Positions 25,328 to 64,000 of a stretch of 64,000 bases of DNA are shown piece after piece. The stretch's first letter is position 1. Every line of letters begins with the position of its first letter. Source of the DNA: Phytoactinopolyspora limicola (GTDB lineage Bacteria > Actinomycetota > Actinomycetes > Jiangellales > Jiangellaceae); assembly GCF_011320225.1 (NCBI RefSeq), contig NZ_JAAOEN010000007.1, forward strand, positions 119,243 to 183,242, read 5' to 3'. A program made the translations under genes and the position numbers. Under the pieces are notes generated by a model. It saw nothing but the letters and a program-made list of their open reading frames with translations, ran no database searches and was not told the DNA's origin.

Positions 25328-25385
25328 CCCATGATCATGAACACTTATCCGTGCTATCACCCGGGTAAGTGTTCATGATCATGGG
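25328..25385. repeat. Long palindrome P1 behind gltX (subfamily B)
   Basis: CCCATGATCATGAACACTTA (25328-25347) is perfectly inverted at 25366-25385, leaving an 18-base loop. It ends 10 bp after the gltX stop. The arms share CATGATCATGAACACTT with P3 at 35098. It could act as a terminator, though no T-run follows. Confidence 0.85.
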
Positions 25386-25394
25386 AGTGGGCGG

Positions 25395-26951
25395 TTAAGG
25401 GAGGGAGTTCAACGCCGCCTCCAGGCGGTCCAGCGTCGTCTCGCGGCCGAGCAGCTCCAGCGACTCGAACAACGGCGGCGACACCCGACGTCCCGTCACC
25501 GCCACCCGCACCGGCCCGAACGCCAGCTTCGGCTTCAGCCCGAGGCCTTCGATCAACGCTGCCCGCAAGACCTGCTCGATCGACTCCGTCGACCACACCT
25601 CCGCCTCTCGCAGGGCCGACGCGGCTGCCTCGAGCACGGGTTTGGCGGCGTCGGTGAGAACCTTCGCACCGTCGGCCTCGTCCACCGCGAACCCCTCCCC
25701 GGCGAAGAGGAACCCCAGCATGCCGACGCTCTCCTCGAGGACCACCATGCGCTCCTGCACGAGAGGTGTCGCTGCCCGCAACAGCTCCAACGACGCTTCG
25801 GAGGGCGGATGCGCGAACAGCCCCGCTTCCTGCAGGTGTGGCACCATTCGCTCGGCGAGATCGTCGACGGTGAGCCGCCGTACCCAGGCGGAGTTGATCG
25901 CCTCGGCCTTCTTCAGGTCGAAGCGGGCAGCATTGGGATTGACCTTGGTGACGTCGAATGCCGCAACCATCTCCGGCAGGGAGAAGACTTCCTCGTCGCC
26001 GCCGATCGACCAGCCCAACAGCGCCAGATAGTTGAGCAGGCCCTCACGCAGGAAGCCGCGGTCGAGGTAGAGCTGCAACGACGACTCCGGCTCCCGCTTC
26101 GACAGTTTGCGTCCGCCGTCGCCCGTCACCAGTGGAAGGTGCGCGAAGCGTGGCATCGGCCCGCCAGCGATACCCAGCTCCCGCAGCGCCTCGTGCAGCA
26201 CGATCTGCCGTGGAGTGGACGACAGCAGGTCTTCACCGCGCAACACGTGGGTGATCCCCATCAGCGCGTCGTCCACCGGGTTGACCAGGGTGTAGAGCGG
26301 GTGACCGTTGGCCCGGACCAGGACGTAGTCGAAAAGGTTGTGCTGGTCGACGCTGATCTCACCGCGGATCAGGTCGGTGAACGTGACGGTCTCGTCGGGG
26401 GTACGCATGCGCAGGACCGGCTCGCGCCCTTCGGCCCGGAACGCCGCCACCTGCTCGTCGGTCAGGACTCGGCAGTGGCCGTCGTAGCCGCTGGGTTTCC
26501 CCGCCGCCCGGGCAGCCTCCCGGCGCTCCTCCAGCTCGGCGGTGGAGCAGTAGCAGTGGTACGCCTTACCCGACTCGAGTAGACGGGCCGCGACGTCGCG
26601 GTAGGTGTCGTAGCGCTGCGACTGCCGGTACGGTCCGTGGTCTCCCCCGGCCTCCGGGCCCTCGTCCCAGTCGAGGCCCAGCCAACGCAGCGACGCCAGC
26701 AGCGCCTCATACGACTCCTCGCTGTCCCGCGAGGCATCGGTGTCTTCGATGCGGAACACGAACGTGCCGCCGTAGTGGCGGGCGAACGCCCAGTTGTATA
26801 GCGCCGCCCGAACCAACCCGACATGCGGGTTGCCGGTGGGCGACGGGCAGAACCGCACCCGCACGTCGCTCGGAGCGACGTCGCCGAGCACGAACGCGTC
26901 CGACGCATGGTCGTCAGTCACAGACATCACCTTCACGTTCATATACGACAC
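25395..26951 (-). CDS. gltX: Glutamate--tRNA ligase
   Basis: Up to 518 residues. [20 protein letters not shown] carries the HIGH-type motif (here PHVG), [20 protein letters not shown] is the class Ic signature and [15 protein letters not shown] the KMSKS-type loop; the C-terminal helical anticodon-binding domain is complete. It charges tRNA-Glu (and tRNA-Gln in species that amidate). Start choice is open: GTG at 26951, ATG at 26942 or ATG at 26927 (MSVTDD), all before the conserved domain. The 3' end is followed at once by palindrome P1 and then tRNA-Gln. Confidence 0.97.
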
Positions 26952-26989
26952 ATGGAACTGTCACGAACACTTGCCGGGGCGCCGGACCG

Positions 26990-27775
26990 TCAGTCGGCGG
27001 CGGCCACCACCTGATTGCCCAGCACGCCAATACCCTCAACCGACACGACGACGTGATCACCGGCGTTGATCGGCCCGACACCGGCCGGGGTGCCGGTGAG
27101 GATCACGTCGCCGGGCAGCAAGGTGAACGCCGCGCTGATGTAGGAAACGAGAGCGGCGACGTCGAACACCATCCGCGACGTCCGCCCGTCCTGCCGACGT
27201 TCACCGTTGACCTGGCAGCGCACCGCGACGTCAGCGGGATCCAGGTCGGTCTCGATCCACGGACCGAGAGGGCACGACGTGTCGAACCCCTTGGCCCTGG
27301 CCCATTGGTGATCCTTACGTTGCAGGTCACGGGCCGTGACGTCGTTGGCGCAGGTATAACCGAGCACGACCTCGGGCACGCGCTCGGCCGGGACGTCCTT
27401 GGCGATCCGACCGATGACGACGGCCAGCTCAGCCTCGTAGTGCACCTCCGCGGAGTGCGCGGGCAACACGATCGGATCGTCCGGGCCGATCACCGACGTG
27501 TTCGGCTTCAGGAACAACAACGGCTCGGCCGGCACCTCGTTGCCCAGCTCGTCGGCGTGCTCCACGTAGTTGCGCCCGACGCCCACCACCTTGCTGCGCG
27601 GGATCACCGGCGCCAGCAACCGGACGTCGTCCAGGGCTATCTTCTCGCCGGTGAGCTGGATGGGCTTGTACAGCGGGTCGCCCTCCAGAACGGCGAGGAC
27701 AGTCTGGCCGTCCTGATCTTCACCAACCGCACCGAATCGCGGGTCGTCACCCGTCGTGAACCTCGCTATACGCAC
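26990..27775 (-). CDS. Fumarylacetoacetate hydrolase-family protein
   Basis: 261 residues from the GTG at 27775 (RIARFTTGDDPRFGAV). The FAH domain shows VVGVGRNYVEHADELGNEVP, FLKPNTSVIGPDDPIVLP, VHYEAELAVVIGR (metal-binding Glu residues), GYTCANDVTARDLQRKDHQW and ILTGTPAGVGP. Members hydrolyse or decarboxylate acylpyruvates and related diketo acids with Mg2+ or Mn2+; the exact substrate is not readable. In actinomycetes this gene is commonly next to gltX, as here (38 bp apart, same strand), which suggests co-transcription. Confidence 0.92.
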   Translation of the reverse strand: MRIARFTTGDDPRFGAVGEDQDGQTVLAVLEGDPLYKPIQLTGEKIALDDVRLLAPVIPRSKVVGVGRNYVEHADELGNEVPAEPLLFLKPNTSVIGPDDPIVLPAHSAEVHYEAELAVVIGRIAKDVPAERVPEVVLGYTCANDVTARDLQRKDHQWARAKGFDTSCPLGPWIETDLDPADVAVRCQVNGERRQDGRTSRMVFDVAALVSYISAAFTLLPGDVILTGTPAGVGPINAGDHVVVSVEGIGVLGNQVVAAAD

Positions 27776-27890
27776 GCACGGAGAGTATCTCGGACCGACG
27801 GCGGCGATCGAACCGGACTCGCCGGCACGTCGCGTCGCCCTGGTGGCCACCGCTCAACCGGCGATCCACCCGGCCCGATTGGGGGGCGTT

Positions 27891-28427
27891 TCAGGAGCCG
27901 TGGTGTTGGTGGCGAGAGCGTCCAGCAGCGCGCCGACGCAGGACGGTCACCACGTCGGCGTCGAGGCGCGACACCACGACGACCCCCAGCGCCGCGACAA
28001 CCGCCACGGCGATCAGCACACCGGCCACCGCGGCCGTCGTCGACACCGCGTCGCCGACCAGCCAGCCGATGGCCACCAGCCAGCCCGCGGCGACCCACAC
28101 CCCCGCGTCGCCGGCGACGTCATGGACGATGGCAGCGGAGTCCGACGTTCGCACGACGGCGGCGTAACACGCGACGACGGTGAGCGCCGCGCCGATGGTC
28201 AACCCGGCCGCCACCAACCAGCCGGTCGTCGCCCCGAGGTGACCAGCGACGAGGTAGCCGACGACGCCGGGCCCGACCAGCCCGGCCGCAACGACCAGCG
28301 TCTTCGCTGCGATCAGCAGAGGCAGCAGAGCGACGGCACCCAGGACCGACCGGACCGCGAGCCGTCCACTGGCCGGGGTCTCCCGGCTGGCACTGGCGGC
28401 AGCCCGCTGCGCAGGGTCGTCTCTCAT
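27891..28427 (-). CDS. Small polytopic membrane protein
   Basis: 178 residues with four clear membrane helices (VLGAVALLPLLIAAKTLVVA, GWLVAAGLTIGAALTVVACY, VAAGWLVAIGWLVGDAV, AVAGVLIAVAVVAALGVVVV) and a basic His/Arg-rich C-terminal tail. No recognised family. Its start overlaps the region upstream of the divergent glycosylase-like gene (28480), so they share a promoter region of only about 50 bp. Confidence 0.75.
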   Translation of the reverse strand: MRDDPAQRAAASASRETPASGRLAVRSVLGAVALLPLLIAAKTLVVAAGLVGPGVVGYLVAGHLGATTGWLVAAGLTIGAALTVVACYAAVVRTSDSAAIVHDVAGDAGVWVAAGWLVAIGWLVGDAVSTTAAVAGVLIAVAVVAALGVVVVSRLDADVVTVLRRRAAGRSRHQHHGS

Positions 28428-28479
28428 GCTGGCACCCTATCCACCGGCCCGCGCTTTGGGTCCTCGTAGGCTGGAGAAC

Positions 28480-29355
28480 GTGCAGGTCCTGACCGAACCC
28501 GAGTGGCGACGCCGCGCCGAGGCGCACGCCCGACGGGTCAACGCTCTCATCGGCCAGCACCTCGTCCGCCGCGACGAAGGGCGGGCCCACCCGGTCGAAG
28601 ATTTCCTGTTTACGTACTACAGTCAACGCCCAGCCCGCCTCCGCCGTTGGCACCCTGGACCAGGGGTGACGCTCGCCGGCGACGCTCCGCACGCCCAATG
28701 GCGCGGGTACCACCCAACGGCGGAGGGCACCGTCCTCGACCCGGCGTTCATCGCCGAGCGGGCGGACACCTTGCGGTGGGTGCGCGACCTGCTGTCCGCA
28801 ACCGCGTCCCGGCCCGCGTTCACCGGCTGTTTCGGACTGCACGAGTGGGCCATGGTGTACCGGACCGCCCCTGGTGACGTCCGGCATGAAGCCTGGCCGC
28901 TGCGGCTCGGACACCGCGGCACCGACGACGTCGTCGAGTCGCACCAGATCCGGTGCACCCACTTCGACGCCTTCCGGTTCTTCACCGAGCCGGCCCGCCC
29001 CCGCAATACCGTGCAACCCACCCGATCGCACCAGGCGCAGCTGGAACAGCCCGGCTGTCTACACGCCAACATGGACCTCTACAAATGGGCGTACAAACTC
29101 AGTCCGCTCACGCCGAGCGAGTTGGTCGCGGATGCCTTCGAGCTGGCCAAGGAGATCCGAGTGCTGGACATGCGCGCCTCCCCGTACGACCTCGCCGATC
29201 TCGGATACCAGCCGGTGCGTATAGAGACGCGGGAGGGCAAGGCTGAGTACGCCGCGGCGCAGCGTAAATTCGCCGAACGTGCCGCCGCGCTACGCCGTCG
29301 GCTCCTCGACGTGGTCGACGCGTGTCATCCAGCACCGTCGCCGACCACACCCTAG
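28480..29355 (+). CDS. Putative 3-methyladenine DNA glycosylase (actinobacterial type)
   Basis: 291 residues from the GTG at 28480. The protein has HPVEDFLFTYYSQRPARLRR near the start, FTGCFGLHEWAMVYR in the middle, CTHFDAFRFFTEPARPRNTV and HANMDLYKWAYKLSPLTPSE later. I recall this conserved actinobacterial family being annotated as 3-methyladenine DNA glycosylase; I see no classical HhH or AlkD repeat that would prove that activity, so the name rests on memory of the family. Conserved His, Cys and Asp residues suggest an enzyme. The ribosome site is weak (TGGAG). Confidence 0.65.
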   Translation: MQVLTEPEWRRRAEAHARRVNALIGQHLVRRDEGRAHPVEDFLFTYYSQRPARLRRWHPGPGVTLAGDAPHAQWRGYHPTAEGTVLDPAFIAERADTLRWVRDLLSATASRPAFTGCFGLHEWAMVYRTAPGDVRHEAWPLRLGHRGTDDVVESHQIRCTHFDAFRFFTEPARPRNTVQPTRSHQAQLEQPGCLHANMDLYKWAYKLSPLTPSELVADAFELAKEIRVLDMRASPYDLADLGYQPVRIETREGKAEYAAAQRKFAERAAALRRRLLDVVDACHPAPSPTTP

Positions 29356-29367
29356 CGCACCCCGCTT

Positions 29368-29622
29368 CCGCACCTGATCTCCGTTTTGTCACCTGATCGT
29401 TTTCATGGCGACGATCAGATGCGGATGTGATGGCAACGCTGCTGGTCAACGCGCCGCAGCGGCGTCTGGATACATCTCAAGATGCGAACGGTAGAACGAT
29501 CAGATGCGGAAACCGCCCTGCGGCGTGCGGTCGTGCATCTGATCGAGAAGTGTCCACATGCTGTGACGACGCGATCAGATGCGGAAACGGAGATCAGGTG
29601 CGGAAACGGAGATCAGGTGCAC
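29368..29622. repeat. Array of GATCAGRTG repeats between convergent genes
   Basis: Eight copies of the core GATCAGATG or GATCAGGTG occur in both orientations in 255 bp. Forward copies start near 29412, 29507, 29572, 29591 and 29609; reverse copies (CAYCTGATC) lie near 29370, 29391 and 29536. Several extend to GATCAGATGCGGAAAC. The outer copies form an inverted pair (CCGCACCTGATCTCCGTTT versus AAACGGAGATCAGGTGCGG). It fills the gap between 29355 and the lipoate ligase stop. Confidence 0.75.
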
Positions 29623-29630
29623 GACGGGGG

Positions 29631-30725
29631 TTAGGGGACGCGGTAGAGCCAGTCGTCCGAGGTGAACTTCGTCTCGGCGAGCTGCCGAGCTCGGGCCAGC
29701 GTCGCACCGTCGAGTTCGCCGTCCGCCAGACCGTAACGGGTGCGGAACGTCGCCACCATCCGGCTGATGACGTCGGCGCGATCCAGCCCCGTCTGGCTGC
29801 GTAGTGGGTCTACCCGCTTGTTGGCGCTCTTCGTGCCCTTGTCGGAGAGTTTCTCCCGGCCGATGCGCAACACGTCCAGCATCTTCGCCGCGTCGATGTC
29901 GTACGCCATCGTCACGTGATGCAACACCACGCCTCCAGCCAGCCGCTTCTGTGCGGCGCCGGCGATCTTGCCCACAGGCGAGGTGATGTCGTTGATCGGC
30001 TGGTACGTCGCGGCCACGCCGAGGTCGTTGAGCGCTCCCACCACCCAGTCGTCCAGGAAGGCGTACGAGTCGACGAATGACAACCCCGACACCAGCGACT
30101 CCGGGACGTACAGCGAGTAGGTGATCGTATTCCCGGGTTCGACGAACATCGCCCCGCCACCGCTGATCCGGCGGACGACGGTGACATCATGCCGACGCGC
30201 CGCCTCGAGGTCCACCTCGTTGCGCACCGACTGAAAGCTGCCGATGATCACCGCGTTGGACGCCCATTCCCATACCCGCAGCGTTGGTGGCCGCTCCCCC
30301 GTGCCGACCTGATCGGCGATCACCTCCTCCAACGCCATCTGCAGCGCGGGTTCGTACGGCTCGCCCCGGAGGAGGTGCCATTGGTGGTCGGTCCAGCCCG
30401 TCGCACCGGTGACGGCTCGGCGTACTGCCACGGCGACCGCGTCGGCATCGAACCCGAGTGAGACCGCCCCTTCGAGCGCTGTCCGGGCTCGGGCCGACAA
30501 CTCGGCCGCCGGAGTGTTCAGCGGGATGCCGCTGAGCGCCTCGTTGATCCGCGTTAGCGCGTCGTCGGGTTCGAGGAAGAAGTCGCCGCTGATGGTGGCC
30601 TTCTCGATGACGTGGTCATGAACGACGAGGTCGGCGACGACGAGTTTTCCGCCCGGCACCTTGAATTCACCATGCACACCCTGTGCAACCACCGAACCAC
30701 GCCGACTGTTCCGACCTCTCCCCAT
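29631..30725 (-). CDS. Lipoate--protein ligase family protein
   Basis: 364 residues from the ATG at 30725. An N-terminal accessory domain (HGEFKVPGGKLVVADLVVHD, with DALTRINEALSGIP) precedes the catalytic LplA/LipM fold (~140-330). That fold shows RVWEWASNAVIIGSFQSVRN, VVRRISGGGAMFVEPGNTIT and SPVGKIAGAAQKRLAGGVVL (adenylate-binding Lys). E. coli LplA has the accessory domain at the C-terminus, so this is the swapped order. It attaches lipoate to E2 or GcvH proteins. The ATG lies inside palindrome P2; a GTG at 30692 is an alternative start. Confidence 0.85.
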   Translation of the reverse strand: MGRGRNSRRGSVVAQGVHGEFKVPGGKLVVADLVVHDHVIEKATISGDFFLEPDDALTRINEALSGIPLNTPAAELSARARTALEGAVSLGFDADAVAVAVRRAVTGATGWTDHQWHLLRGEPYEPALQMALEEVIADQVGTGERPPTLRVWEWASNAVIIGSFQSVRNEVDLEAARRHDVTVVRRISGGGAMFVEPGNTITYSLYVPESLVSGLSFVDSYAFLDDWVVGALNDLGVAATYQPINDITSPVGKIAGAAQKRLAGGVVLHHVTMAYDIDAAKMLDVLRIGREKLSDKGTKSANKRVDPLRSQTGLDRADVISRMVATFRTRYGLADGELDGATLARARQLAETKFTSDDWLYRVP

Positions 30726-30781
30726 GATCATTGGCTTTTGACTACCGGATCCGGTAGTCAAAAGCCAATGATCATGGGGAG
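30718..30781. repeat. Perfect 64-bp palindrome P2 (subfamily A)
   Basis: Perfect symmetry around GGATCC at 30747-30752, with no loop. Each half reads CTCCCCATGATCATTGGC then TTTTGACTACCGGA. The core ATTGGCTTTTGACTACCGG is shared with P5 and P7 and nearly with P6. It begins 5 bp after the stop of the nitronate monooxygenase gene (leftward) and covers the first codons of the lipoate ligase. Confidence 0.9.
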
Positions 30782-30785
30782 GGGG

Positions 30786-31826
30786 CTAGGGGAGGCCGGC
30801 GGCGAGGTCCCGGGTGATTTCACCCGCGCCGACCTCCCGGCACCCACTGGTGTTTTGGCCCGCCCACATCCACGAGAAGTCGCCACGCCCCTGCGCCTCG
30901 GCAGCCGCCCGCAGCGGCGCTACGGCGGCCGACGCCAGCGGGAAAGCGGGCACGTCGTCGCGCATCGCGCCGAGTTCACGCATCGCCCGGTTGACGAGGC
31001 CCCGGGCTGGCCGTCCGCTGAACACGTTGGTCAACGCGGTGTGCCGCGAGTCTTCGCTGGCCAGCGCGGCACGGTGGACCGGTGAGGTGGTCGCCTCCGG
31101 GCAGCGCAGATACGCGGTACCGACCTGCACTCCCTCAGCGCCGAGCGCTAGCGCCGCCGCCACTGCCCTAGCGTCGGCGATCCCGCCGCTGGCGATCACT
31201 GGCACGTCGACGGCGGCCACCACCTGCGGCACCAAAGTCAGCGTGCTCACCTGAGTTGTGAGGTCGTCGGTGAGGAACATGCCTCGATGTCCGCCGGCTT
31301 CGAGCCCCTGGGCGATGATCACGTCGGCTCCCCCGTCGTGCAGCCAACGCGCCTCGTCGATCGTCGTGGCCGACGCCAACACCGTCGACCCCCACGCCTT
31401 CACCCGGGCCAGCAGCTCAACCGACGGCAGCCCGAAATGGAAGCTGACGACGGGCGGCCGGAACTCGTCGAGGACATCAGCAGCGTCGGCGTCGAACGGC
31501 GACCGCGTCGGCCCGGACGGCCGAGCGTCCGGATCGAGCCCCAACTCCTCGTAGTAGGGCCGCAGCCGCAACCGCCATGCCTTGTCTCGTTCCGCGTCGG
31601 GCGGCGGCGCGGTGTGGCAGAAGAAGTTGACGTTGTACGGCCCGTTCGTCAACGTCGTGATGCGGGTGAGTTCGGCCCGGATACCGTCCGGGCCGAGCGT
31701 CGCGCAGGGTAGTGAGCCGAGGCCACCGGCGTCGCACACCGCGGCGGCTAGCTCGCTGCCTTGCACACCCGCCATGGGTGCCTGGACGATGGGAAGCTCG
31801 CTGTTGAGTACATCGGCCAGGCTCAC
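30786..31826 (-). CDS. Nitronate monooxygenase (2-nitropropane dioxygenase family)
   Basis: 346 residues, a flavin TIM barrel. IVQAPMAGVQGSELAAAVCD is the FMN-binding start, VVSFHFGLPS follows, ADVIIAQGLEAGGHRG carries the conserved AGGH with the catalytic His, and VIASGGIADARAVAAALALG with GVQVGTAYLRCPEA bind the phosphate. It oxidises alkyl nitronates such as propionate 3-nitronate to the carbonyl compound and nitrite. It lies 30 bp after cimA on the same strand, so it may be co-transcribed, and ends in palindrome P2. Confidence 0.92.
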   Translation of the reverse strand: MSLADVLNSELPIVQAPMAGVQGSELAAAVCDAGGLGSLPCATLGPDGIRAELTRITTLTNGPYNVNFFCHTAPPPDAERDKAWRLRLRPYYEELGLDPDARPSGPTRSPFDADAADVLDEFRPPVVSFHFGLPSVELLARVKAWGSTVLASATTIDEARWLHDGGADVIIAQGLEAGGHRGMFLTDDLTTQVSTLTLVPQVVAAVDVPVIASGGIADARAVAAALALGAEGVQVGTAYLRCPEATTSPVHRAALASEDSRHTALTNVFSGRPARGLVNRAMRELGAMRDDVPAFPLASAAVAPLRAAAEAQGRGDFSWMWAGQNTSGCREVGAGEITRDLAAGLP

Positions 31827-31856
31827 CCGGGTTCTTCCTCTCGTCGCCGGCGGAAA

Positions 31857-33476: not shown

Positions 33477-33593
33477 TGCTCTTCCCCGATCCGTGTGTGG
33501 GTGGATTGCGTGCGAATGTTCGGTGCGTGCCGGCCACCGATGCTCACCGTGTCCCGCTGGCGCCACGCGTTCCCGGACCGCACATGCTCCCTG

Positions 33594-33628
33594 GAATGCA
33601 AAAGACCCCTCGCAGAAGCGAAGGGTCT
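33594..33628 (-). terminator. Intrinsic terminator in the cimA leader (attenuator)
   Basis: On the minus strand the transcript forms an 11-bp stem (AGACCCUUCGC with GCGAGGGGUCU, one G-U pair, loop UUCU) followed directly by UUUUGCAUU. It lies 21 bases after the leader-peptide stop and about 120 bases before the cimA start. No other gene ends here, so it is placed to stop transcription before cimA. Confidence 0.8.
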
Positions 33629-33648
33629 GGCGCGCCGGGCGGTGATGC

Positions 33649-33690: not shown

Positions 33691-33861
33691 CGCTTCGTAG
33701 CATGCCACAGACTCGACGATCCGGCCAGCGCCTGCGTCCACATGGTGAACAGCCGTACCACTGGCTGGACGCGCTACCGACAGCCGCTCCTCCGGTCGCC
33801 CTCCCGTTGTCCGGCCGGACAACGTGGAACACGGAGGCCGCGGGGCGGGACGACTGGCGGA

Positions 33862-35097: not shown

Positions 35098-35155
35098 CCC
35101 ATGATCATGAACACTTTGCCGTGCCATGGCACGGCAAAGTGTTCATGATCATGGG
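35098..35155. repeat. Perfect 58-bp palindrome P3 (subfamily B)
   Basis: Perfect symmetry around CCATGG at 35124-35129. Each half reads CCCATGATCATGAACACTTT then GCCGTGCCA. The outer CATGATCATGAACACTT equals that of P1. It begins 6 bp after the S8 protease stop and lies about 140 bp before ilvE in the direction of transcription. Confidence 0.9.
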
Positions 35156-42855: not shown

Positions 42856-42983
42856 CCCCGTGATCGTTAGCGGATTTCGGCCCCCAGGCCGGGTGATCGT
42901 TGCCGGTTTCGTGTCGCGATAGCGACCCAATCCCGGCGACGATCACCCGGCCTGGGGGCCGAAATCCGCTAACGATCACGGGG
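42856..42983. repeat. Very long inverted repeat P4 (45-bp perfect arms)
   Basis: The arm at 42856-42900 begins CCCCGTGATCGTTAGCGGAT and is perfectly inverted at 42939-42983. The 38-base loop contains its own small stem (GTCGC with GCGAC near 42914-42926). TGATCGTT occurs twice in each arm, so the arm looks like two stacked units. It covers the last codons of thiD (stop at 42969) and ends 49 bp before the tenA start. It resembles P1-P3 in its TGATC ends but has its own core. Confidence 0.9.
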
Positions 42984-45302: not shown

Positions 45303-45446
45303 CTCCTTCCCACCGGGAGGGAGCCTGCGAGGTGGTGCGTCTGGTTCGAGGTGACGTCCGCACCCCCGATTCGGCTCCCTGCGCCGGCATGACCCGGATC
45401 AGGTTCGGCGGGTGTGATCTCAGCCTCGCGCGAGGCACCCCGGCCG
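45303..45446 (-). promoter_or_regulatory. TPP riboswitch with a ribosome-site sequestering platform
   Basis: On the minus strand the conserved TPP (THI-box) aptamer is plain: GGGGTGCC, GGCTGAGATCACACCCG, AACCTGATCCGGGTCATGCC and GGCGCAGGGAG (45446-45368). Downstream, CTCCCTCCC pairs with GGGAAGGAG around the loop GGT, masking the thiM ribosome site (45303-45323). The aptamer end AGGGAGCC (45373-45380) can pair with GGCTCCCT (45318-45325), an anti-sequestering stem. I infer translational OFF control by TPP. Confidence 0.92.
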
Positions 45447-45539
45447 ATCGGTTTCGTGATTCCAACCTACCTCATCGGGCACGACGGGCAATACGCCGCC
45501 TTGTGCCCAAACCCGCCACGCCACCACCGCCCGCCACGC

Positions 45540-45690
45540 TGCCCCGGGGTTGGATGTGGCAACGGAGCGGAACTGGTGAACGGAGTGGAGCTGGTGCAGC
45601 GACGGAGCGGCGGAGGTGTTGCTCTGGCGACACTGATGGCACTCCGTTCGCGCACCAACTCCACTCCGCGCACCAACTCCACTCGGTGCG
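45540..45690. repeat. Short-repeat array between the riboswitch and ppk2
   Basis: About 18-bp units of the type AACGGAGTGGAGCTGGTG occur forward near 45556-45615 and inverted (CACCAACTCCACTCCGCG) near 45652-45688, where two tandem copies lie side by side. Some units are degenerate. The array ends at the ppk2 stop (45692), so it may fold into a terminator-like structure for that gene. Confidence 0.6.
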
Positions 45691-45691: not shown

Positions 45692-46537
45692 TCACTCCAG
45701 GGTGGCCGCGTGGTCCGGAACGTGGTTCTGCAGCTCATGCGGCGGGCGCTGGTAGCCCGTGGACTCTGGCCGCGGCGGCAGCTCTATCTCCGGCTGTTTC
45801 ACCTCGTGATAGTCGAGGGTGGAGAGCAGGTGGGCGATCATGTTGATCCGGGCGCTGCGTTTGTCGTCGCTTTCGACGACGTACCACGGTGCCTCGGCGA
45901 TGTCGGTGTGAACGAACATGTCGTCCTTGGCTCGGGAGTAGTCTTCCCAGCGCTGGACCGCCTCGACGTCCATCGGCGAGAGCTTCCACCGTCGCATGGG
46001 GTCTTCCAGCCGGGACCGGAAGCGACGTTCCTGCTCCTCGTCGCTCACCGAGAACCAGTACTTACGCAGCAGGATCCCGTCCTCGACGAGCAGCCGCTCG
46101 AAGATGGGACATTCACGGTAGAAGCGCATGTACTCCTCGGGAGTGCAGAAACCCATCACTCGCTCCACGCCGGCCCGGTTGTACCAGCTGCGGTCGAACA
46201 GCACCAGCTCGCCGGCCGCCGGCAAGTGCTGGATGTAGCGCTGGAAGTACCACTGGGTGCGCTCGCGGTCCGACGGCGCAGGTAGCGCGACGACGCGGGC
46301 AATCCGGGGGTTCAGGAACTGGGTGACCCGTTTGATGACCCCGCCCTTCCCGGCGGCGTCTCGGCCCTCGAAGATCACGACGAGCCGGATCCCCTCCACC
46401 CGGACCCATTCCTGAAGCTTTACGAGTTCACTCTGGAGTCGGATCAGCTCGGCTTCGTACAGCTTCTTCTTCAGCCGCCGACGATCGCCCGGCTGTGCTG
46501 CCGCGGCCGCGTCCGAGCTGCGTTTGGTGACGGACAC
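45692..46537 (-). CDS. ppk2: Polyphosphate kinase 2
   Basis: 281 residues from the GTG at 46537, which has GAGGAGGG at the right distance; a longer frame adds only filler. Walker A is VIFEGRDAAGKGGVIKRVTQ, the lid region is SDRERTQWYFQRYIQHLP and Walker B is VLFDRSWYNRAGVERVMGFC. FRSRLEDPMRRWKLSPMDVE and the RAKDDMFVHTDIAEAPWYVV segment complete a one-domain class I PPK2. It transfers phosphate from polyphosphate to nucleotides, mainly ADP or GDP. It is divergent from the kinase-like gene at 46689. Confidence 0.93.
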   Translation of the reverse strand: MSVTKRSSDAAAAAQPGDRRRLKKKLYEAELIRLQSELVKLQEWVRVEGIRLVVIFEGRDAAGKGGVIKRVTQFLNPRIARVVALPAPSDRERTQWYFQRYIQHLPAAGELVLFDRSWYNRAGVERVMGFCTPEEYMRFYRECPIFERLLVEDGILLRKYWFSVSDEEQERRFRSRLEDPMRRWKLSPMDVEAVQRWEDYSRAKDDMFVHTDIAEAPWYVVESDDKRSARINMIAHLLSTLDYHEVKQPEIELPPRPESTGYQRPPHELQNHVPDHAATLE

Positions 46538-46688
46538 CAGGCCCTCCTCGCCGGCGTACGGCCCCTGCGCGGCGCCCCCGCCATCGGTACACGTTAATGC
46601 TGTTGTCTCGACCCTAACGTTCCCGCTGACGTCGCCGTCACCCACTCGCCGGATCGACCACCCACGCACCGCCTGCGACGATGGTGCG

Positions 46689-53535: not shown

Positions 53536-53607
53536 CCCTGTCCCGGTGATCATTGGCTTTTGACTACCGGATCCGGTAGTCAAAAGCCAATGATCACCGG
53601 GACAGGG
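53536..53607. repeat. Perfect 72-bp palindrome P5 (subfamily A)
   Basis: Symmetry around GGATCC, no loop. The inner core ATTGGCTTTTGACTACCGG equals P2 and P7. The outer arms CCCTGTCCCGGTGATC are specific to this locus beyond GTGATC, yet still perfectly inverted (GATCACCGGGACAGGG). The stop TGA of the TetR gene at 53594 is part of the right arm. Confidence 0.92.
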
Positions 53608-54310
53608 CAGGAGCGTAGGCCGCCAAGAAGACCCGCACCCCTTCGTCGGCGTAGTAGTCGAGTTCGGCCACCGCGGGCGGTTCGTCGTCGACTCGGAACA
53701 TCGCCCGGTTGAGCGGTATAGACAGGATCAGCCAGTTGAAATGTTCAGCCGCTAACTCCGGGTCAGACACACGTAACCGTCCCTGCCGGGCCAGCTCGCT
53801 GAAGAGCGCGGCGAACGCGGCGCGTCCGCGAGCCGGGGCGCGCTCGTACCAACTCCGCGCCAGCTCGGGGAACTGGTCGGCGGCACCGATGATGACCCGT
53901 CGCATCTGAACGATGTGCGGCTGCATGATCACCGCGAGGTGCCGGCGCGCGTAGTGCCGCAACTGCTCCCCCAGGTCACCAGAGGTGAGGAGACCATCCA
54001 ACATCTCCTGCCCGTCAGACTCAGCCGCATCGATGACGCCGTCGATCACGGCGGTGAACAGCCGCTGCTTGTCCGCGAAATGTTTGTACACCGTCTGCTT
54101 GGAGACCCGCGCCAACGCGGCGATGTTATCCATGCTCGTGCCGCCGTATCCGTCGCGGAGGAAGACAGTGCACGCGGCGTCGAGAATCGCCTGCCGCTTG
54201 CGCGCCGAGCGCCCCCTTTCCGGCGCCGCCCGAGGGCCTGGATCAGTGCCTACTCCGGCGCGCCCGCCGTCCTCGACGGCCCGGCCAGCATCGACTACAT
54301 GTTCACCCAT
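53594..54310 (-). CDS. TetR-family regulator of the divergent hydrolase
   Basis: 238 residues. After a ~30-residue basic lead comes the HTH RKRQAILDAACTVFLRDGYG, NIAALARVSKQTVYKHFADK, then a C-terminal domain of the AcrR/AefR type (HYARRHLAVIMQPHIVQMRR). The ribosome site before the ATG at 54310 is weak; a later start inside the lead is possible. It is divergent from the alpha/beta hydrolase (54396) and the 85-bp gap holds palindromic boxes, so it probably represses that gene. The last codons and stop lie in palindrome P5. Confidence 0.9.
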   Translation of the reverse strand: MGEHVVDAGRAVEDGGRAGVGTDPGPRAAPERGRSARKRQAILDAACTVFLRDGYGGTSMDNIAALARVSKQTVYKHFADKQRLFTAVIDGVIDAAESDGQEMLDGLLTSGDLGEQLRHYARRHLAVIMQPHIVQMRRVIIGAADQFPELARSWYERAPARGRAAFAALFSELARQGRLRVSDPELAAEHFNWLILSIPLNRAMFRVDDEPPAVAELDYYADEGVRVFLAAYAPALSR

Positions 54311-54323
54311 GACTCAGATAGTA

Positions 54324-54371
54324 CTAGACAGTCTAGTTCTCAGGAGAGTACTGTACAGTCTAGTACTCTCC
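54324..54371. promoter_or_regulatory. Operator boxes between TetR and the hydrolase
   Basis: Box 1: CTAGACAGTCTAG (54324-54336), perfect arms around one base. Box 2: GGAGAGTACT (54343-54352) inverted as AGTACTCTCC (54362-54371). CAGTCTAGT occurs in both. They sit between the two divergent starts and are the likely TetR sites. Confidence 0.7.
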
Positions 54372-55906: not shown

Positions 55907-55915
55907 AGCCTGACC

Positions 55916-58278: not shown

Positions 58279-58431
58279 ATCGTGATGATATTCCATGAGG
58301 GCGATGAAGAGCACTGAGGTCGGACGGCCAGCCAAGGCGGGTCCTTCGCCCCTGGGTCGACACCATGCCGGATCGCAGAATCGAATCGACCACACCGGGG
58401 CCTTGAGCGCCCTCCGAAGGAGTCACCCGTC

Positions 58432-58947
58432 ATGCGTGCACTCGTCGTCTACGAATCGATGTTCGGCCACACCCGCTCGATCGCCGAGGCGATCGCCGCC
58501 GGACTCGCCTCGACCATGGTGGTGGACATCGTCGAAGTCAACGATGCGCCGACCGACATCGGGCCCGACGTTCACCTGATCGTCGTGGGCGGCCCCACCC
58601 ACGCCCTCGGCATGAGCCGGCCGAGCACCCGGCAGGAAGCTGCTCGCCAGGCGCCGGACGGCCTCGTCTCCACCGGCACGGGGATCCGGGAGTGGCTGGC
58701 CACACTACATCCACCGACGACGACGCTGGCCGCGGCCAGCTTCGACACCAAGGCACGCCGGCCACGGCTACCTGGCTCGGCGGCCCATGCCACCGCCCGT
58801 CGGCTCCGCCGGTTGGGGTTGACGATGATCTCCCGACCACAGAGCTTCAACGTCGACGGGGTTACCGGCCCCCTCACCGCAGGTGAAGAGGACCGGGCGC
58901 GGGAGTGGGGCCACGAACTCGGCGACCACGTACCCATGAGCCGATGA
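58432..58947 (+). CDS. Flavodoxin-fold protein
   Basis: 171 residues. The FMN-binding start is ALVVYESMFGHTRSIAEAIA, followed by DVHLIVVGGPTHALGMSRPS (second loop) and LAAASFDTKARRPRLPGSAA (third loop, with the FxTKxR pattern common in actinobacterial flavodoxins). The end EEDRAREWGHELGDHVP is typical. It may serve as an electron carrier or a stress-related FMN protein. AAGGAG precedes the ATG. It is divergent from the metal sensor gene. Confidence 0.88.
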   Translation: MRALVVYESMFGHTRSIAEAIAAGLASTMVVDIVEVNDAPTDIGPDVHLIVVGGPTHALGMSRPSTRQEAARQAPDGLVSTGTGIREWLATLHPPTTTLAAASFDTKARRPRLPGSAAHATARRLRRLGLTMISRPQSFNVDGVTGPLTAGEEDRAREWGHELGDHVPMSR

Positions 58948-58966
58948 ACGTCGGCGCAGGCAACAC

Positions 58967-59443
58967 TCAGGCGGACGCCCGCAGCTTCTGCACGGTTCTC
59001 GCCGCACGATCATCGCGCGTCTCTTGACGCTTCGCCTCCGCGACCCAGCCCGCATATTCCTTGCGGTGAGAGTAAGAGAGCGCATCGAAGGCCGACTTTG
59101 CCTCCGGATCGGCGGCGAGCGCGGCCTCCAACTCGGCCGGCACCTCGACCAACCGGGGCTCGTCGTCTCGCGCGATCCGTATCCGCACCGCGTCTCCGAC
59201 GTCGACCCCGAACTCGACGCGTTGGTCTTTGCGCAGCCCAATCCAGCCCGAGCCGCCATAGATCGCGACGGTGGTGCGAAACCATGCACCACCGTCGACC
59301 GAGACCCGCACCGGAGCGCGAGCCTTGCCGAATACCTCCCGAGGGTTGAACGGCAACTCGAAGCCGCACCCCGGTCCATCGTCCTGACCCACCAGGACGG
59401 CGTCGAACGCGTGCCCTAACACACGTACATTGTGCACGCCCAC
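58967..59443 (-). CDS. DUF1905/YdeI-type protein
   Basis: About 158 residues, with start GTG at 59443 or 59437; longer frames add basic filler only. The N-terminal beta barrel has PFNPREVFGKARAPVRVSVD, RTTVAIYGGSGWIGLRKDQR and VGDAVRIRIARDDEPRLVEV (DUF1905). The C-terminal helical part has SAFDALSYSHRKEYAGWVAE, then AKRQETRDDRAARTVQKLRA, the bacteriocin-protection/YdeI motif. The function of the family is not established. Confidence 0.82.
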   Translation of the reverse strand: MGVHNVRVLGHAFDAVLVGQDDGPGCGFELPFNPREVFGKARAPVRVSVDGGAWFRTTVAIYGGSGWIGLRKDQRVEFGVDVGDAVRIRIARDDEPRLVEVPAELEAALAADPEAKSAFDALSYSHRKEYAGWVAEAKRQETRDDRAARTVQKLRASA

Positions 59444-59501
59444 TGACGATTCGTCAGGCGAACCACGGTGTTTATCTCTCAGATCGGTATACCTCGCCCG
59501 T

Positions 59502-60461
59502 TCAGCCCGTCGCCGCGGCGACCACCACACCACCGAGCGCCGCCAGACCCGCACTCACCGGCAACGTCACCAGCCAGGCCATCGCGAGATTCCGGACGAC
59601 GCGCCAGCGCACCCGGCGCACGCTGTCGTGAACACCGGCACCCAGCAGACCACCCGCGATCGACTGCGTCATGCTGACCGGGGTACCCACCGCGGCACTG
59701 CCGAGCACCGCCGCCGCGGCCGACAGCTCAGCCGTGACGGTGTGGGTGGCCCGCGTGCTGAGAATGCCGTTGCCCACCGTTCGGGCGACCTTCGGCAACC
59801 CCAGGAGAGCACCAACGGCGAACCCCGCCGCCACCACCAAGTAAACCCACCACGCCACCGCGGCACCGTGACCAGCCGCGACGCTGGCGGCGAGGAACAG
59901 CACCAGAACCTTCTGACCGTCGTTGGCCCCGTAGGCCACACACTGCGCCGCGTACGCCACCACGTGCGCCCGCCGCATGGTGGACAGGTAGGAGCCACCC
60001 CTCAGCGACCGCCACACCTTCGACACCACTAGCGCCAGCACCATCCCGACGACGGGCGCGGCCGCACCGATGGCGAGCACCCGCATGAGTGCACTCCACT
60101 CGACCACCAGCCCGCTCCCGAGGCCGGCCCCCGCGATGCCGCCGATCACCGCGAGCGTCAAGCTGGTGGGCAAGCCGAGCCAGGCCAGCACGGACACCAC
60201 CGCCACGGCCGTCACGAAGCCGATCCCCACCGCGGTAGTACCGTCACCGTCGCCCGGCACGATCGAACCGAGCATGGTTCCGGCAACCGCGGTGGTCACC
60301 AAAAGCGGCACCGCCACCAGCGCGGCGACCAGCAACGCCAGACTCGCCGACACCGACAACCCCGGCACCCTCAACCCTGGTGCGATCAGCGCGCCACCAT
60401 CATTCGCTCCGGTGACGATCACGAACGCGACCGCTACGGCGACGAGCAGCTCGGGCGCCAC
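59502..60461 (-). CDS. PiT-family inorganic phosphate transporter
   Basis: 319 residues with about ten membrane helices and the duplicated PiT signature: VIVTGANDGGALIAPGL in the first half and QCVAYGANDGQKVLVLFLAA in the second (GANDxxK/N). It moves phosphate with H+ or Na+ as a metal-phosphate complex. It is shorter than E. coli PitA (about 500), as in many actinobacteria with a compact middle loop. It lies 88 bp after the DUF47 gene on the same strand. Confidence 0.93.
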   Translation of the reverse strand: MAPELLVAVAVAFVIVTGANDGGALIAPGLRVPGLSVSASLALLVAALVAVPLLVTTAVAGTMLGSIVPGDGDGTTAVGIGFVTAVAVVSVLAWLGLPTSLTLAVIGGIAGAGLGSGLVVEWSALMRVLAIGAAAPVVGMVLALVVSKVWRSLRGGSYLSTMRRAHVVAYAAQCVAYGANDGQKVLVLFLAASVAAGHGAAVAWWVYLVVAAGFAVGALLGLPKVARTVGNGILSTRATHTVTAELSAAAAVLGSAAVGTPVSMTQSIAGGLLGAGVHDSVRRVRWRVVRNLAMAWLVTLPVSAGLAALGGVVVAAATG

Positions 60462-60549
60462 GATCCTCCTCGTTCTGGCCGGACCACCGTGGCCAAGCCG
60501 CTACACCTGGACGAGAGTTGAACTGCCGACGGCCGCCGGCCGATGAGCC

Positions 60550-61215
60550 TCAGTAGCCGCGCTTGAGCGCTCCGTCGGTCAAGACGTCGGCGGCATCGTT
60601 GATGCGCATACCCACCATGTCGAGCCGTTTGATCAGCTCCCGGTGCTTGAGCGCCTGCGGCGAGACGGTGCCGTCGATGATCTTCGCGAACTCATCCTGG
60701 TAGCCGCGGCTGATGCCTCGGGCCGCCTTCTTCGCCTCCAGCGCCTTGAGCGGGACCCGGTGGGGCTTACTCCAGAGGGCGTCGACGGCTTCGTCGAGTG
60801 ACTCGATGGCCCCGACCACGTCGTCCAGGAACGGCCGATACGTCTTCCGTTTCTCGATCTGGTAGAGGTCGGCTTCGCGGACGAAGTCGCGGATAGTATC
60901 CAGGACGTCGTCGATGGAGCGGGAGAGCCGGAACAGGTCCTCACGATCAAGAGGGGCCACCAACGTCTGCGACAGCCGTTCGACCAGCTCCGCGCGCTGT
61001 TCGTCGCCCCGATGCTCGATCTCGGCGATCTGCGACCGCGCATCGGCCGGGTTCACCTTCTTGTTCACCATTGCCTGAGCCAAGGCGGCACCTTCGAGGG
61101 CAGCATGCACCTGCCCGGTAAGCGCTCCGGACAGGTGTGAGTCCCCCCGCGCCCGCCACGACGACCGCAACCGTCGCCATGGTGCCTTCATCGCCGACCT
61201 CGTCTCAACAGTCAT
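60550..61215 (-). CDS. PhoU-like (DUF47) accessory protein of PiT
   Basis: 221 residues, all-helical: EIEHRGDEQRAELVERLSQT, DREDLFRLSRSIDDVLDTIR and KRLDMVGMRINDAADVLTDG carry the ExxxD-type metal motifs of the DUF47/PhoU fold. Its pairing with a pit gene is standard and it modulates the transporter. A start at 61191 (MKAPWRR) is also possible. A Pho-box-like repeat lies directly upstream. Confidence 0.9.
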   Translation of the reverse strand: MTVETRSAMKAPWRRLRSSWRARGDSHLSGALTGQVHAALEGAALAQAMVNKKVNPADARSQIAEIEHRGDEQRAELVERLSQTLVAPLDREDLFRLSRSIDDVLDTIRDFVREADLYQIEKRKTYRPFLDDVVGAIESLDEAVDALWSKPHRVPLKALEAKKAARGISRGYQDEFAKIIDGTVSPQALKHRELIKRLDMVGMRINDAADVLTDGALKRGY

Positions 61216-61224
61216 TCAGATTCC

Positions 61225-61257
61225 GTTCAACTTTTGTTCACCTTTGATTAACCTATT
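61225..61257. promoter_or_regulatory. Pho-box-like direct repeats upstream of the DUF47-pit operon
   Basis: Three 11-bp units in a row on the plus strand: GTTCAACTTTT, GTTCACCTTTG, ATTAACCTATT. The first two match the Streptomyces PhoP direct-repeat consensus (GTTCACC core). They lie 10 bp upstream of the start codon, in reverse orientation to the operon. PhoP control is likely. Confidence 0.65.
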
Positions 61258-61316
61258 ATCTACCATCTCCCAGCGATCGCCGTAGTGGCCTACGTCACCT
61301 CATACCCACCGAGACG

Positions 61317-62363
61317 TCATGTTCTCCACGCGACATCCGAGTTCACCAGGCCGGGCAGCTCGCTGCCGGCCAGATAAGCGGCCACCACTTCGGCGGCCAG
61401 CTCGGCGGCCCGATGGGCGGTCTGCCGGGTGGCACCGGCGAGGTGTGGTGTCAGCACCACCCGATCGGAACCCAACAACGGCCAGTCCTGCGGCAGCGGC
61501 TCAACTGGGAAAACGTCCAGGCCAACACCCGCGAGATGGCCATCGCGGAGCGCATCGGCCACCGCTGTGTAGTCGACTAGGCCACCCCGCGCGGTGTTCA
61601 CGAGGTAACTCCCCGGGCGCATCGTCGCGAGCCGGGCACGGTCGATCATGTTCGCCGTATCCGGCGTGAGGCGGGCATGCAGCGAGACAACATCGCTGCT
61701 GCCCAGCAGGGTGTCGAGGTCGGTCAGGCGGACGTCCGGGGGCAGCGTCGCCGGATCGACGAACGGGTCGGACACAATGACCGTGGCATCGAAGGCCCGC
61801 AGGATCCGCGCCACCCGGCGCCCGATGGCCCCCAGCCCGATCAACCCCACGGTGGCGCCGCCGAGTTCCGCGCCGCATGCGTCGTAGGCATACAGGTCAC
61901 TGCGCCATTCACCAGCGGCGACGCTGTTGTGTACGGGCGGGATAGCGCGCACGGTGGCGAGCATGAGGGTGATGGCGTGTTCGGCGGCCGCCACGGCGTT
62001 GCGGCCCGGCGTGTTGCACACGGCGACCCCCCTCGCCGTAGCCGCCTCGACGTTCACGTTCACTGGCCCGCCACGGGTGCACACCACCAGGCGCAACGCG
62101 GGTGCGGCGGCCAGGACCCGTTCGGTGAGCGGCGCCATCTGGGTGATGACGATCTCGGCGTCGGTCAACTGCTCCAGCATCGTGTCCTCGACGTCGGAGG
62201 CCTCGTCCACCTCGCTCACCCGGCCGAATGGCTCTAGCGGCCATGGAAGGGTGATGGACCGAAGGTCGAGGTCAGCGGAGACCGCTCGGTTCAGCCGGTC
62301 CGCCAGGATGTCGTTGCGGACGAAGTGGTCTCCCGCCAGCAGGACCCGTCGTGGCTCACCCAT
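61317..62363 (-). CDS. D-2-hydroxyacid dehydrogenase
   Basis: 348 residues from the ATG at 62363 (GAGGAG upstream). The Rossmann fold is VGLIGLGAIGRRVARILRAF. LRLVVCTRGGPVNVNVEAAT carries the substrate loop, NTARGGLVDYTAVADALRD the catalytic Arg, and DRVVLTPHLAGATRQTAHR the catalytic His. It resembles phosphoglycerate/hydroxypyruvate-type dehydrogenases but lacks an ACT domain. It follows the FGGY kinase on the same strand, so the pair probably serves sugar or sugar-acid catabolism. Confidence 0.9.
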   Translation of the reverse strand: MGEPRRVLLAGDHFVRNDILADRLNRAVSADLDLRSITLPWPLEPFGRVSEVDEASDVEDTMLEQLTDAEIVITQMAPLTERVLAAAPALRLVVCTRGGPVNVNVEAATARGVAVCNTPGRNAVAAAEHAITLMLATVRAIPPVHNSVAAGEWRSDLYAYDACGAELGGATVGLIGLGAIGRRVARILRAFDATVIVSDPFVDPATLPPDVRLTDLDTLLGSSDVVSLHARLTPDTANMIDRARLATMRPGSYLVNTARGGLVDYTAVADALRDGHLAGVGLDVFPVEPLPQDWPLLGSDRVVLTPHLAGATRQTAHRAAELAAEVVAAYLAGSELPGLVNSDVAWRT

Positions 62364-62390
62364 CTTGCTCCTCATCATCTGTGCTCGTTC

Positions 62391-62448
62391 CCGGTGATCA
62401 TTGGCTTTTGACCACCGTTTCCGGTGGTCAAAAGCCAATGATCACCGG
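62391..62448. repeat. Palindrome P6 (subfamily A variant)
   Basis: CCGGTGATCATTGGCTTTTG then ACCACCG (62391-62417) is perfectly inverted at 62422-62448, with a 4-base loop TTTC. Compared with P2 and P5, the inner arm has paired changes: ACTACCGG became ACCACCG on one side and CGGTGGT on the other. The FGGY kinase stop (TGA, 62442-62444) is in the right arm. Confidence 0.92.
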
Positions 62449-63890
62449 AGGGGGTGTGCTGTCCAGTGGGCACGAGCGTGCTCGACGCGATCGACGTAGT
62501 CGGCGAACGCGGCGTCGTAATGCTCACGCGCCGTCGGCTCCGGTTCGACGACGCGCCGCGGAATCGGCCAATCCACCGCATCACCGCGTTCGTCCAGCGC
62601 CGAGAGCACAGCGCCGTAGGCCCCGGCCTGTGCCACGTCCACCACCTCGAGCGGCCGGCCGAGTACGTCGGCGAACAACTGGATCCACGTCGCACTCTGC
62701 GCTCCGCCACCACACACCGCCAGCCGCCCGGTGAGCCCCGCGGCCTCGAAACAGTGCCGGGCGGCGAACGCCAACCCCTCACACAACCCACGCACCAGGT
62801 CCGCGCGGGTGGTGCCCAAGTGCAGCCCGTCGATCCGGCCACGGGCCGCAGCTTCGACGAACGGCGCCCGCTCCCCCGACTCCGACCAATACGGCAACAC
62901 CCGCACCCCGTTCGCGCCCGCCGGCGAGGCATCGATCAAGCCACCGAGTTCACTCACCCTGGCACCGACGGTGGTGAGCAGCCAGTCCAGCGACGCGGTC
63001 CCCACCATGGCCGGCATCGCCCGCATCCAATGCCCGGGCTCCCACATACCCAGCAGCAGTCCGGCCCGGTGCGGGATCGGCGCCGGGTCGGTGGTCACCA
63101 CCTGGCAGGCCAGAGTGGTCCCGACGATCAGCAACCCATCTCCGGGGTCGACGATGCCGCTGCCCCGGGCGGCCGCCAGCAGGTCATACGGACCAGCGCT
63201 GACCGTCGTGCCGGCCGGCAGGCCGAGCAGTTCCGCACCGGTGCTATCCAGGGGTGCCGACGGGCCGCCGGGGCGGATCACCTCCGGCAGCAGGTGCGCG
63301 CGTTGGTCGAGACCGACGGCGCGTAGCACCTCGGTGTCGTATTCGCCGCGGAACGGGTTCAGGAACGGGTACGACGCGTCGGACACGTCGATGGCCCGCT
63401 CCCCCGTCAGCCGCCGGAACACCACACCGACACAGTGGGTGGCCGTCGTCGCCCGGTCGAGTACCTCCGGCTCGTCGCGGTCCAGCGCGGCCAGGATCGC
63501 CGCCGACGCACCCGGGAACAGCATCCCGCCGGTGCGTTGCAGTACCAGGTCCGCCGTGCCGTCACGGTCCCACTCGCGCACGATGTCCGACGCCCGCGCG
63601 TCCAGCCAGGATGCCGCCGGGCGCACCGGCAGCCCGTCCGTATCGTGCAGCCAGCATCCGTCGCCCTGTCCGGTCAACGCGACCAGCTCAGGAGCCACCG
63701 GCAGGTCGGCCGCCACCGCCCGGATCACCTGGGCGACCGAGGCGATCACCGCCTCGATGTCCTGTTCTACCCGGCCGCCTCCGGGGTGGTGCAGTTCGGT
63801 GCGGACGCTGTGTTCGCTCAGCGGCGTGCCGCCGGGGTCGTACCCCACGGCCTTGGTCAGCGTGGTGCCGATGTCGACCCCGATGTACAT
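62442..63890 (-). CDS. FGGY-family carbohydrate kinase
   Basis: 482 residues. The ATPase-fold start is YIGVDIGTTLTKAVGYDPGG. LVALTGQGDGCWLHDTDGLP and AASWLDARASDIVREWDRDG (catalytic Asp region) follow, then DLLAAARGSGIVDPGDGLLI and the family signature region RLAVCGGGAQSATWIQLFAD. The family includes xylulokinase, gluconokinase and erythritol or ribulose kinases; the substrate is not decided. It is upstream of the 2-hydroxyacid dehydrogenase in the same direction. Its C-terminal Arg codon and stop come from palindrome P6. Confidence 0.92.
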   Translation of the reverse strand: MYIGVDIGTTLTKAVGYDPGGTPLSEHSVRTELHHPGGGRVEQDIEAVIASVAQVIRAVAADLPVAPELVALTGQGDGCWLHDTDGLPVRPAASWLDARASDIVREWDRDGTADLVLQRTGGMLFPGASAAILAALDRDEPEVLDRATTATHCVGVVFRRLTGERAIDVSDASYPFLNPFRGEYDTEVLRAVGLDQRAHLLPEVIRPGGPSAPLDSTGAELLGLPAGTTVSAGPYDLLAAARGSGIVDPGDGLLIVGTTLACQVVTTDPAPIPHRAGLLLGMWEPGHWMRAMPAMVGTASLDWLLTTVGARVSELGGLIDASPAGANGVRVLPYWSESGERAPFVEAAARGRIDGLHLGTTRADLVRGLCEGLAFAARHCFEAAGLTGRLAVCGGGAQSATWIQLFADVLGRPLEVVDVAQAGAYGAVLSALDERGDAVDWPIPRRVVEPEPTAREHYDAAFADYVDRVEHARAHWTAHPLR

Positions 63891-63914
63891 GGACGCCTCC
63901 TCGAACTCCCTCGT

Positions 63915-64000
63915 CCGCCTCCCCAGTCCCGGTGATCATTGGCTTTTGACTACCGGATCCGGTTGTCAAAAGCCAATGATCACCGGGACTGGGGAGGCGG
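63915..64000. repeat. Palindrome P7 (subfamily A), cut by the window end
   Basis: Symmetry around GGATCC at 63955-63960 extends over at least 43 bp on each side to base 64000, with one mismatch. The core equals P2 and P5. The outer arms CCGCCTCCCCAGTCCCGG are specific to this locus and perfectly inverted. It lies about 25 bp upstream of the FGGY kinase start; by the rule seen elsewhere another leftward gene should end just beyond the window. Confidence 0.9.

Follow-up and report, generated by a model that had tools for sequence, protein, structure and literature searches.

TGATCA-ended palindromes dispersed at gene 3' ends in Phytoactinopolyspora and its relatives, with a predicted role at transcript ends

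We have analyzed seven long palindromes (P1 to P7) found in a 64,000-nt stretch, here called the window, of the genome of a soil actinobacterium, Phytoactinopolyspora (Jiangellaceae). Our reading, to which we give about an even chance, is that they belong to a TGATCA-ended family of several hundred copies that has spread by copying, and that its members are putative two-way transcription terminators or 3'-end barriers, some of which also supply the stop codon. We propose spread by copying because the copies within the genome are near-identical, the half-sites are paired and one of the cores (core A, below) is limited to few species. The genome (6.59 Mb in 40 contigs, among them C1 and C12) is labelled G0 (G000) and its relatives G1 (G001), G2 (G002) and G4 (G004). 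Elements, taken as palindromes of the form TGATC...GATCA, were counted over 1.004 Mb of G0 and 0.86 Mb of G1, using gene models that were heuristic open reading frame calls made for this analysis and left uncurated.

The census gave 65 elements in G0, 37 of them of 50 bp, and 63 in G1, with none in the reversed sequence. Copies of core A (TGATCATTGGCTTTTGAC) and of core B (TGATCATGAACACTT) are near-identical and have a constant length, 50 bp from one TGATC end to the other. Across the whole G0 genome, and allowing up to two mismatches, the two half-sites of core A appeared 104 and 101 times (about 100 copies) and those of core B 91 and 93 times (about 92 copies), both with reversed controls of zero; the frame TGATCAT-N(35-49)-ATGATCA had 212 matches. 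Within the 1.004 Mb all the exact half-sites (62/62) had their partner at the 50-bp spacing, so that single sites of the DNA-uptake type were rejected. A restriction-avoided signal was rejected too, TGATCA being about as frequent outside the elements as expected (408 observed and 408 expected in G0, 395 and 381 in G1). A 400-kb stretch of C1 contained 33 hairpins with a score of at least 15, and GATC was present in 18 of these; an equal stretch of C12 contained 42, with GATC in 28. Two second-order Markov sequences of 400 kb each had none, which excludes a chance origin. Beyond the 50 bp there are C/T-rich flanks that are specific to each site and often exact inverted copies of each other. Palindromic flanks of at least 10 bp were present in 11 of the 65 elements of G0 and 4 of the 63 of G1, versus 0.6% and 0.1% when flanks were swapped, and the longest extension of a core-A copy goes 24 bp past the core with one mismatch (C1:251614-251711).

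An earlier note on this stretch had described the seven palindromes, and all of them were found where it had placed them (Table 1); P2 is perfect over 30718-30781, and its extension to 30715..30784 adds one mismatch. The sharing of cores that it reported was also recovered, with core A in P2, P5, P6 and P7 and core B in P1 and P3, as was its statement that the mobile region (1-21,700) is free of the family, since none of the seven TGATC...GATCA elements of the window lies there. It had put the palindromes between 10 bp beyond and 14 bp inside the stop of a leftward gene in six cases, and the distances measured here (+9, +4, +6, -15, -14 and -7 bp) agree within a base. The right-hand gene of P7, read past the window edge, also stops within that palindrome. 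Pfam backs the names of the genes concerned (GltX, nitronate monooxygenase, S8 protease, ThiD-type kinase, TetR and FGGY kinase). A single family for P1 to P7 was rejected, as the cores fall into three or more families, with composites in addition. P4 is one of the latter, a C/D composite of 118 bp (42861-42978) in which one palindrome is nested within the arms of another: TGATCGTTAGC outer arms are followed by a C-rich spacer and then by an inner TGATCGTYGCC palindrome. Composites of this type are also present elsewhere in G0.

The elements are placed at gene ends. In G0, 64 of the 65 are intergenic and one lies within a gene. By type of gap, 23 were convergent, 36 same-strand and 6 divergent, the background of gaps of at least 50 bp being 85, 293 and 138. 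Convergent gaps were enriched with an odds ratio of 2.8 in both G0 (p 0.0006) and G1 (p 0.0015), and divergent gaps were depleted in G0 (p 0.001), the depletion in G1 not being significant (p 0.10). For the elements with an adjacent 3' end, the distance to the stop was compared with random placement within the same gaps (2000 draws). No more than 30 bp separated element and stop in 46 of 59 cases in G0, versus 36.8 under the null (standard deviation 2.8, maximum 46), and in 43 of 55 in G1, versus 29.2 (standard deviation 2.9, maximum 38). The rule of 3'-end placement, which the earlier note had set against random placement, is thus borne out by the genomes, as nearness to stops exceeds the null in both species.

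When a stop codon falls inside an element, it is usually the terminal TGA of the element itself (19/24, 16/17 and 9/10 cases in three species; p 7e-15 for the pooled data against an expectation of one frame in three). Of the 1929 predicted genes of the three species, 52 end exactly on an element TGA. Their protein tails are Pro/Ser-rich, the last residue is Pro or Arg in 45 of the 52 and 13 end in -SP*, which is as expected where the frame reads TCC CCA TGA or TCC CGG TGA. Among the last four residues Pro accounted for 58 of 208 in these genes versus 563 of 7508 elsewhere.

Related species keep the palindrome frame around diverged or different cores. Of the 22 family genomes, 21 had the pattern TGATCAT-N(35-49)-ATGATCA. 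In the class as a whole its distribution was patchy, with a match in 110 of the 296 genomes (the 22 of the family included). Outside the family at least five matches were found in 15 of 274 genomes, and single matches there were often coding-like sequence, the reversed control giving 1 match in three genomes. Core A with at most one mismatch was found in 2 of the 60 genomes searched, its own and G1, and the cores were unlike those of G0 in all four relatives whose frame matches were located. The elements had been called chromosome-specific, and what stands of this is that the cores are species-specific, whereas the TGATCAT frame extends through the family and, unevenly, into the wider class. 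When 50-bp copies were compared (36 of G0, 7 of G1 and 9 of G2), the mean best-match identity within a genome was 97.4% in G0, 92.0% in G1 and 83.1% in G2, and copies of G0 reached 79.4% when matched to those of G1 and 63.8% when matched to those of G2.

Occupancy of the same gene ends was examined in 223 reciprocal-best gene pairs of G0 and G1. Both ends carried an element in 9 pairs, that of G0 only in 20 and that of G1 only in 17 (odds ratio 4.7, p 0.002); for pairs in which both gaps measured at least 45 bp the corresponding counts were 8, 10 and 12, with 74 for the rest (p 0.006). The cores of the two species differ at P6, P7, a site near 71.6 kb and gene 23 of C12, and at others they are diverged forms of one core family. 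At gene 10 of C12 the same TGA stop lies inside TCCCATGATCAT in G0, G1 and G2, with a 50-bp element in each. There, the G0 and G1 elements are diverged core A (40/50 bases alike), and the core of G2 is unrelated (23/50 and 24/50 bases alike; 9/36 and 10/36 in the interior).

The two arms of a copy change together. Mismatches between arms were 21 in 34 core-A copies versus 47.8 +/- 3.4 when partners were shuffled among copies, and 43 in 29 core-B copies versus 63.9 +/- 4.8, a covariation that is inflated by the common descent of the copies. Symmetric switches are common (GGATCC to GAATTC; CA to GG at both feet). At same-strand sites, read in gene direction, the mismatches were 25 G.U and 29 A.C (p 0.68), a comparison for which the control hairpins (13 and 6) were too few to give a calibration. 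Selection on RNA pairing alone would favour G.U and is not seen, so that such pairing by itself does not shape the stems, and with the wobble bias absent an RNA-selected stem was rejected. Equal numbers of G.U and A.C together with linked change of the arms indicate that arm copying at the DNA level probably keeps the palindromes perfect. Template switching, in which DNA is copied from one arm to the other so that the arms vary jointly and stems become perfect (PMC8794818, in excerpt), would be a candidate process.

How the family may work can be outlined as follows. Copies would move through gene conversion or some process other than a transposase of the RAYT type (repetitive extragenic palindrome-associated tyrosine transposase). 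Replication might switch template between the arms, which would keep them identical and lengthen them into the local flank. The hairpin RNA, of about -50 to -130 kcal/mol, would end the transcript or block its decay without a U-tract, and copies could survive at the ends of transcription units thanks to this 3'-end effect. The predicted RNA folds of six elements ranged from -50.6 to -129.5 kcal/mol (z -8 to -17). At same-strand junctions that gained an element, the element-free orthologous gap was shorter than 30 bp in 2 of 16 cases versus 47% of 226 others (p 0.008), where the two tight cases are a single site, P6, viewed from G0 and from G1, the P4 site likewise entered twice, once for each species, and a P7 orthologue (in G1) that carries an element was scored as element-free. 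So few tight gaps are as expected were the elements to cut transcription.

Several of these observations, together with others, weigh against the terminator reading and against spread by copying. The qualifications just given on the 16 junctions, the common descent that inflates the covariation of arms and the equal, uncalibrated G.U and A.C counts are among them. Short gaps are also small targets, and their size in base pairs may by itself predict that few tight junctions gain an element. The excess of stop-proximal elements in G0 is moderate, the top of the 2000 random draws having matched the observed 46, and shared occupancy was not significant between G0 and G2 (1/47 pairs, p 0.49) or between G1 and G2 (1/7, p 0.14). 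The U-tract is absent; the 3' flank is G/A-rich, as the complement of the pyrimidine-rich flank, in a tally that included some composite sub-pairs twice. At P6 the junction is tight in two element-free congeners (-16 and 19 bp, compared with 78 bp here), and in nine relatives inspected by eye the FGGY kinase gene ends without an element, with the next reading frame close behind. P6 thus appears to interrupt an old operon. It lies 31 bp from the next start. Unless the gene that follows had its own promoter, a strong terminator here would shut it off, and the site argues against strict termination. Finally, no mobilising enzyme was found in a search restricted to Y1_Tnp, and no clean empty site was seen. 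Y1_Tnp (PF01797), the RAYT domain, was absent from the 5 genomes of the genus and present in 5 of 14 control genomes, and a RAYT-driven origin was rejected on this ground. For the 37 G0-G1 ortholog pairs with an element in one species only, the alignments listed showed no precise boundary, the intergenic DNA being too diverged for a clean alignment.

Other candidates were also rejected. The nested P4 and the palindromic flanks would be accounted for if elements had inserted into the loops of hairpins already present, but among the ends inspected none of the orthologues lacking an element had the outer arms, though at the stop orthologous to that of P7 G4 has a different short hairpin, TTGAGCGAG...CTCGCTCAA, located exactly there. 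No Rfam match at the gathering score lies over any of the palindromes, which excludes a known RNA family (the three matches in the window are a thiamine pyrophosphate (TPP) riboswitch and two tRNAs). As for a canonical Rho-independent terminator, the stable hairpin at or just past the stop is present and the U-tract is absent.

The main rival, which we consider unlikely but serious, is that the elements act like repetitive extragenic palindromes (REPs) as mRNA stabilisers or translation dampers, the hairpin blocking 3' exonucleases or stalling the last ribosome while transcription goes on. This would fit P6 and P7, which occupy two successive same-strand intercistronic gaps, the 52 genes whose stop codon is the element TGA, and the E. 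coli REPs that are reported to stall ribosomes when located within 15 nt of the stop (PMC12306157, in excerpt). It fits less well with tight junctions in just the two same-strand cases of one site and with the enrichment in convergent gaps, which suggests the ends of transcription units. That same enrichment, the near-full palindromic symmetry and the lack of wobble bias would suit elements acting as DNA, which would take up supercoiling at 3' ends through the binding of gyrase or another protein or through cruciform extrusion; yet such a role does not require the use of an in-frame stop or a tight placement at single tandem 3' ends, and we regard it as quite improbable. An improbable explanation as well is that the palindromes are selfish, inserting near stops and persisting there by mere tolerance, without any function for the host. 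Turnover is fast (20 ends occupied only in G0 and 17 only in G1) and amplification species-specific, as this would predict, but the shared occupancy of G0 and G1 above chance and the gene that keeps the same in-frame TGA in three species both suggest retention.

A wider interpretation, which we offer tentatively and with more doubt than belief, is that of a class-wide superfamily of mobile 'stop-and-terminate' cassettes installed in frame by a process other than RAYT, where each species would overwrite the 36-bp interior in place with its own dialect. Hundreds of dispersed gene ends would then change together, with frame, length and stop codon unaltered. This wider interpretation is slightly weakened by two of the three cores at gene 10 of C12 being diverged core A. 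If the reading of the family is right, several hundred gene ends in these actinobacteria would be written by a dispersed repeat evolving in concert within each species, and a single copy could provide the stop codon, the C-terminal residues and the transcript-end hairpin together. How transcription ends without a U-tract in GC-rich actinobacteria is poorly understood, and here nature has replicated a single candidate terminator across many contexts. The site with one frame and differing cores in three species would allow a direct test of core replacement at dispersed repeats. Rewritten C-termini would, besides, mislead gene callers and ortholog comparisons.

Table 1. Palindromes of the window and genes that end on or follow them (window positions)
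Feature	Position	Strand	Exact 50-bp element	Description
P1	25328..25385		25332-25381	core B, asymmetric centre; 9 bp past gltX stop; convergent neighbours
P2	30715..30784		30725-30774	core A; about 4 bp past nitronate monooxygenase stop
P3	35098..35155		35102-35151	core B, perfect; 6 bp past S8 protease stop
P4	42856..42983			nested composite; stop of thiD-type gene falls inside
P5	53536..53607		53547-53596	core A with 11-bp site-specific palindromic flank; TetR stop is the element TGA (53594-53596, minus)
P6	62391..62448		62395-62444	core A; FGGY kinase stop is the element TGA (62442-62444, minus)
P7	63915..64000		63933-63982	core A with 18-bp palindromic flank; occupies gap between FGGY kinase gene and its upstream gene
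TetR gene	53594..54310	-		terminates on P5 TGA; protein tail -PALSR
2-hydroxyacid dehydrogenase gene	61317..62363	-		downstream of P6, gap 78 bp
FGGY kinase gene	62442..63890	-		terminates on P6 TGA

Other palindromes were found along the way. An eighth repeated one (window 45562-45687, arms of 61 nt that are 70% complementary, ACGGAGTGGAG type) lies 4 bp past the stop of the leftward gene 45692-46645; it represents a separate family without TGATC ends, and a dozen or so comparable copies lie at other places in the genome. The TPP riboswitch detected by Rfam (45359-45452, minus) is upstream of a run of leftward genes, the thiD-type gene of P4 among them. Directly upstream of the TetR gene there is a palindrome GATAGTACTAGACAG...CTAGTACTCTC (54317-54370), perhaps the TetR operator, and G4 has a similar one. 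The mobile region contains an unrelated near-perfect palindrome of 42 bp (5193-5234). Further hairpin families of G0, one of them also in G1, have CTGGCTCAGAATTGCGGATA and TACCGCCAGATGG arms (C12:160440, 175828, 312537, 325636 and 333827; C1:372761).

REPs, and with them bacterial interspersed mosaic elements (BIMEs) and the REP doublets named REPINs, are short, high-copy extragenic palindromes near stops, with species-specific sequence and RAYT transposases; the REP hairpin has a conserved tetranucleotide at one foot. The present elements resemble them in being short, high-copy, extragenic, close to stops and species-specific in sequence, and differ in the absence of Y1_Tnp from the five genus genomes and in a near-perfect symmetric 50 bp with TGATCA ends, the end often being the stop codon. 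The two feet of the hairpin in the present elements resemble each other, being C-rich and variable. The inverted terminal repeats of a miniature inverted-repeat transposable element (MITE) have a counterpart here, each element being in its entirety an inverted repeat with TGATC at its ends. Where the earlier note had left the choice among terminator, REP-like and MITE-like elements, dispersal (about 100 copies of each core), the 3'-end bias and the REP-like habit stand, without a RAYT gene, a U-tract or a clean empty site having been seen. DNA uptake sequences are likewise of high copy number, occur as species dialects and in inverted pairs at gene ends that act as terminators. High copy number, species dialects and inverted pairs at gene ends are shared here, but the half-sites of the present elements come in pairs at a fixed spacing (62/62 exact half-sites), not singly. 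The link between uptake sequences and terminators is named in a title cited by PMC13155455. In Streptomyces clavuligerus, the 3' ends called HS-U-lack are discussed as U-less (I-shaped) intrinsic terminators in the portion consulted of PMC8269248. They are alike in having a GC-rich hairpin at gene ends without a U-tract, and unlike the present elements, which occur as near-identical copies dispersed over the genome, in some cases across the stop, and whose terminator role is predicted. A literature search, with most subscription journals outside its reach, found no published account of these palindromes. Joint change of arms and perfect stems are also features of the hairpins maintained by template switching in the excerpt of PMC8794818, the present ones being dispersed repeats in which switching would be the presumed process. 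We regard the elements as a putative new variant of REP-like dispersed palindromes.

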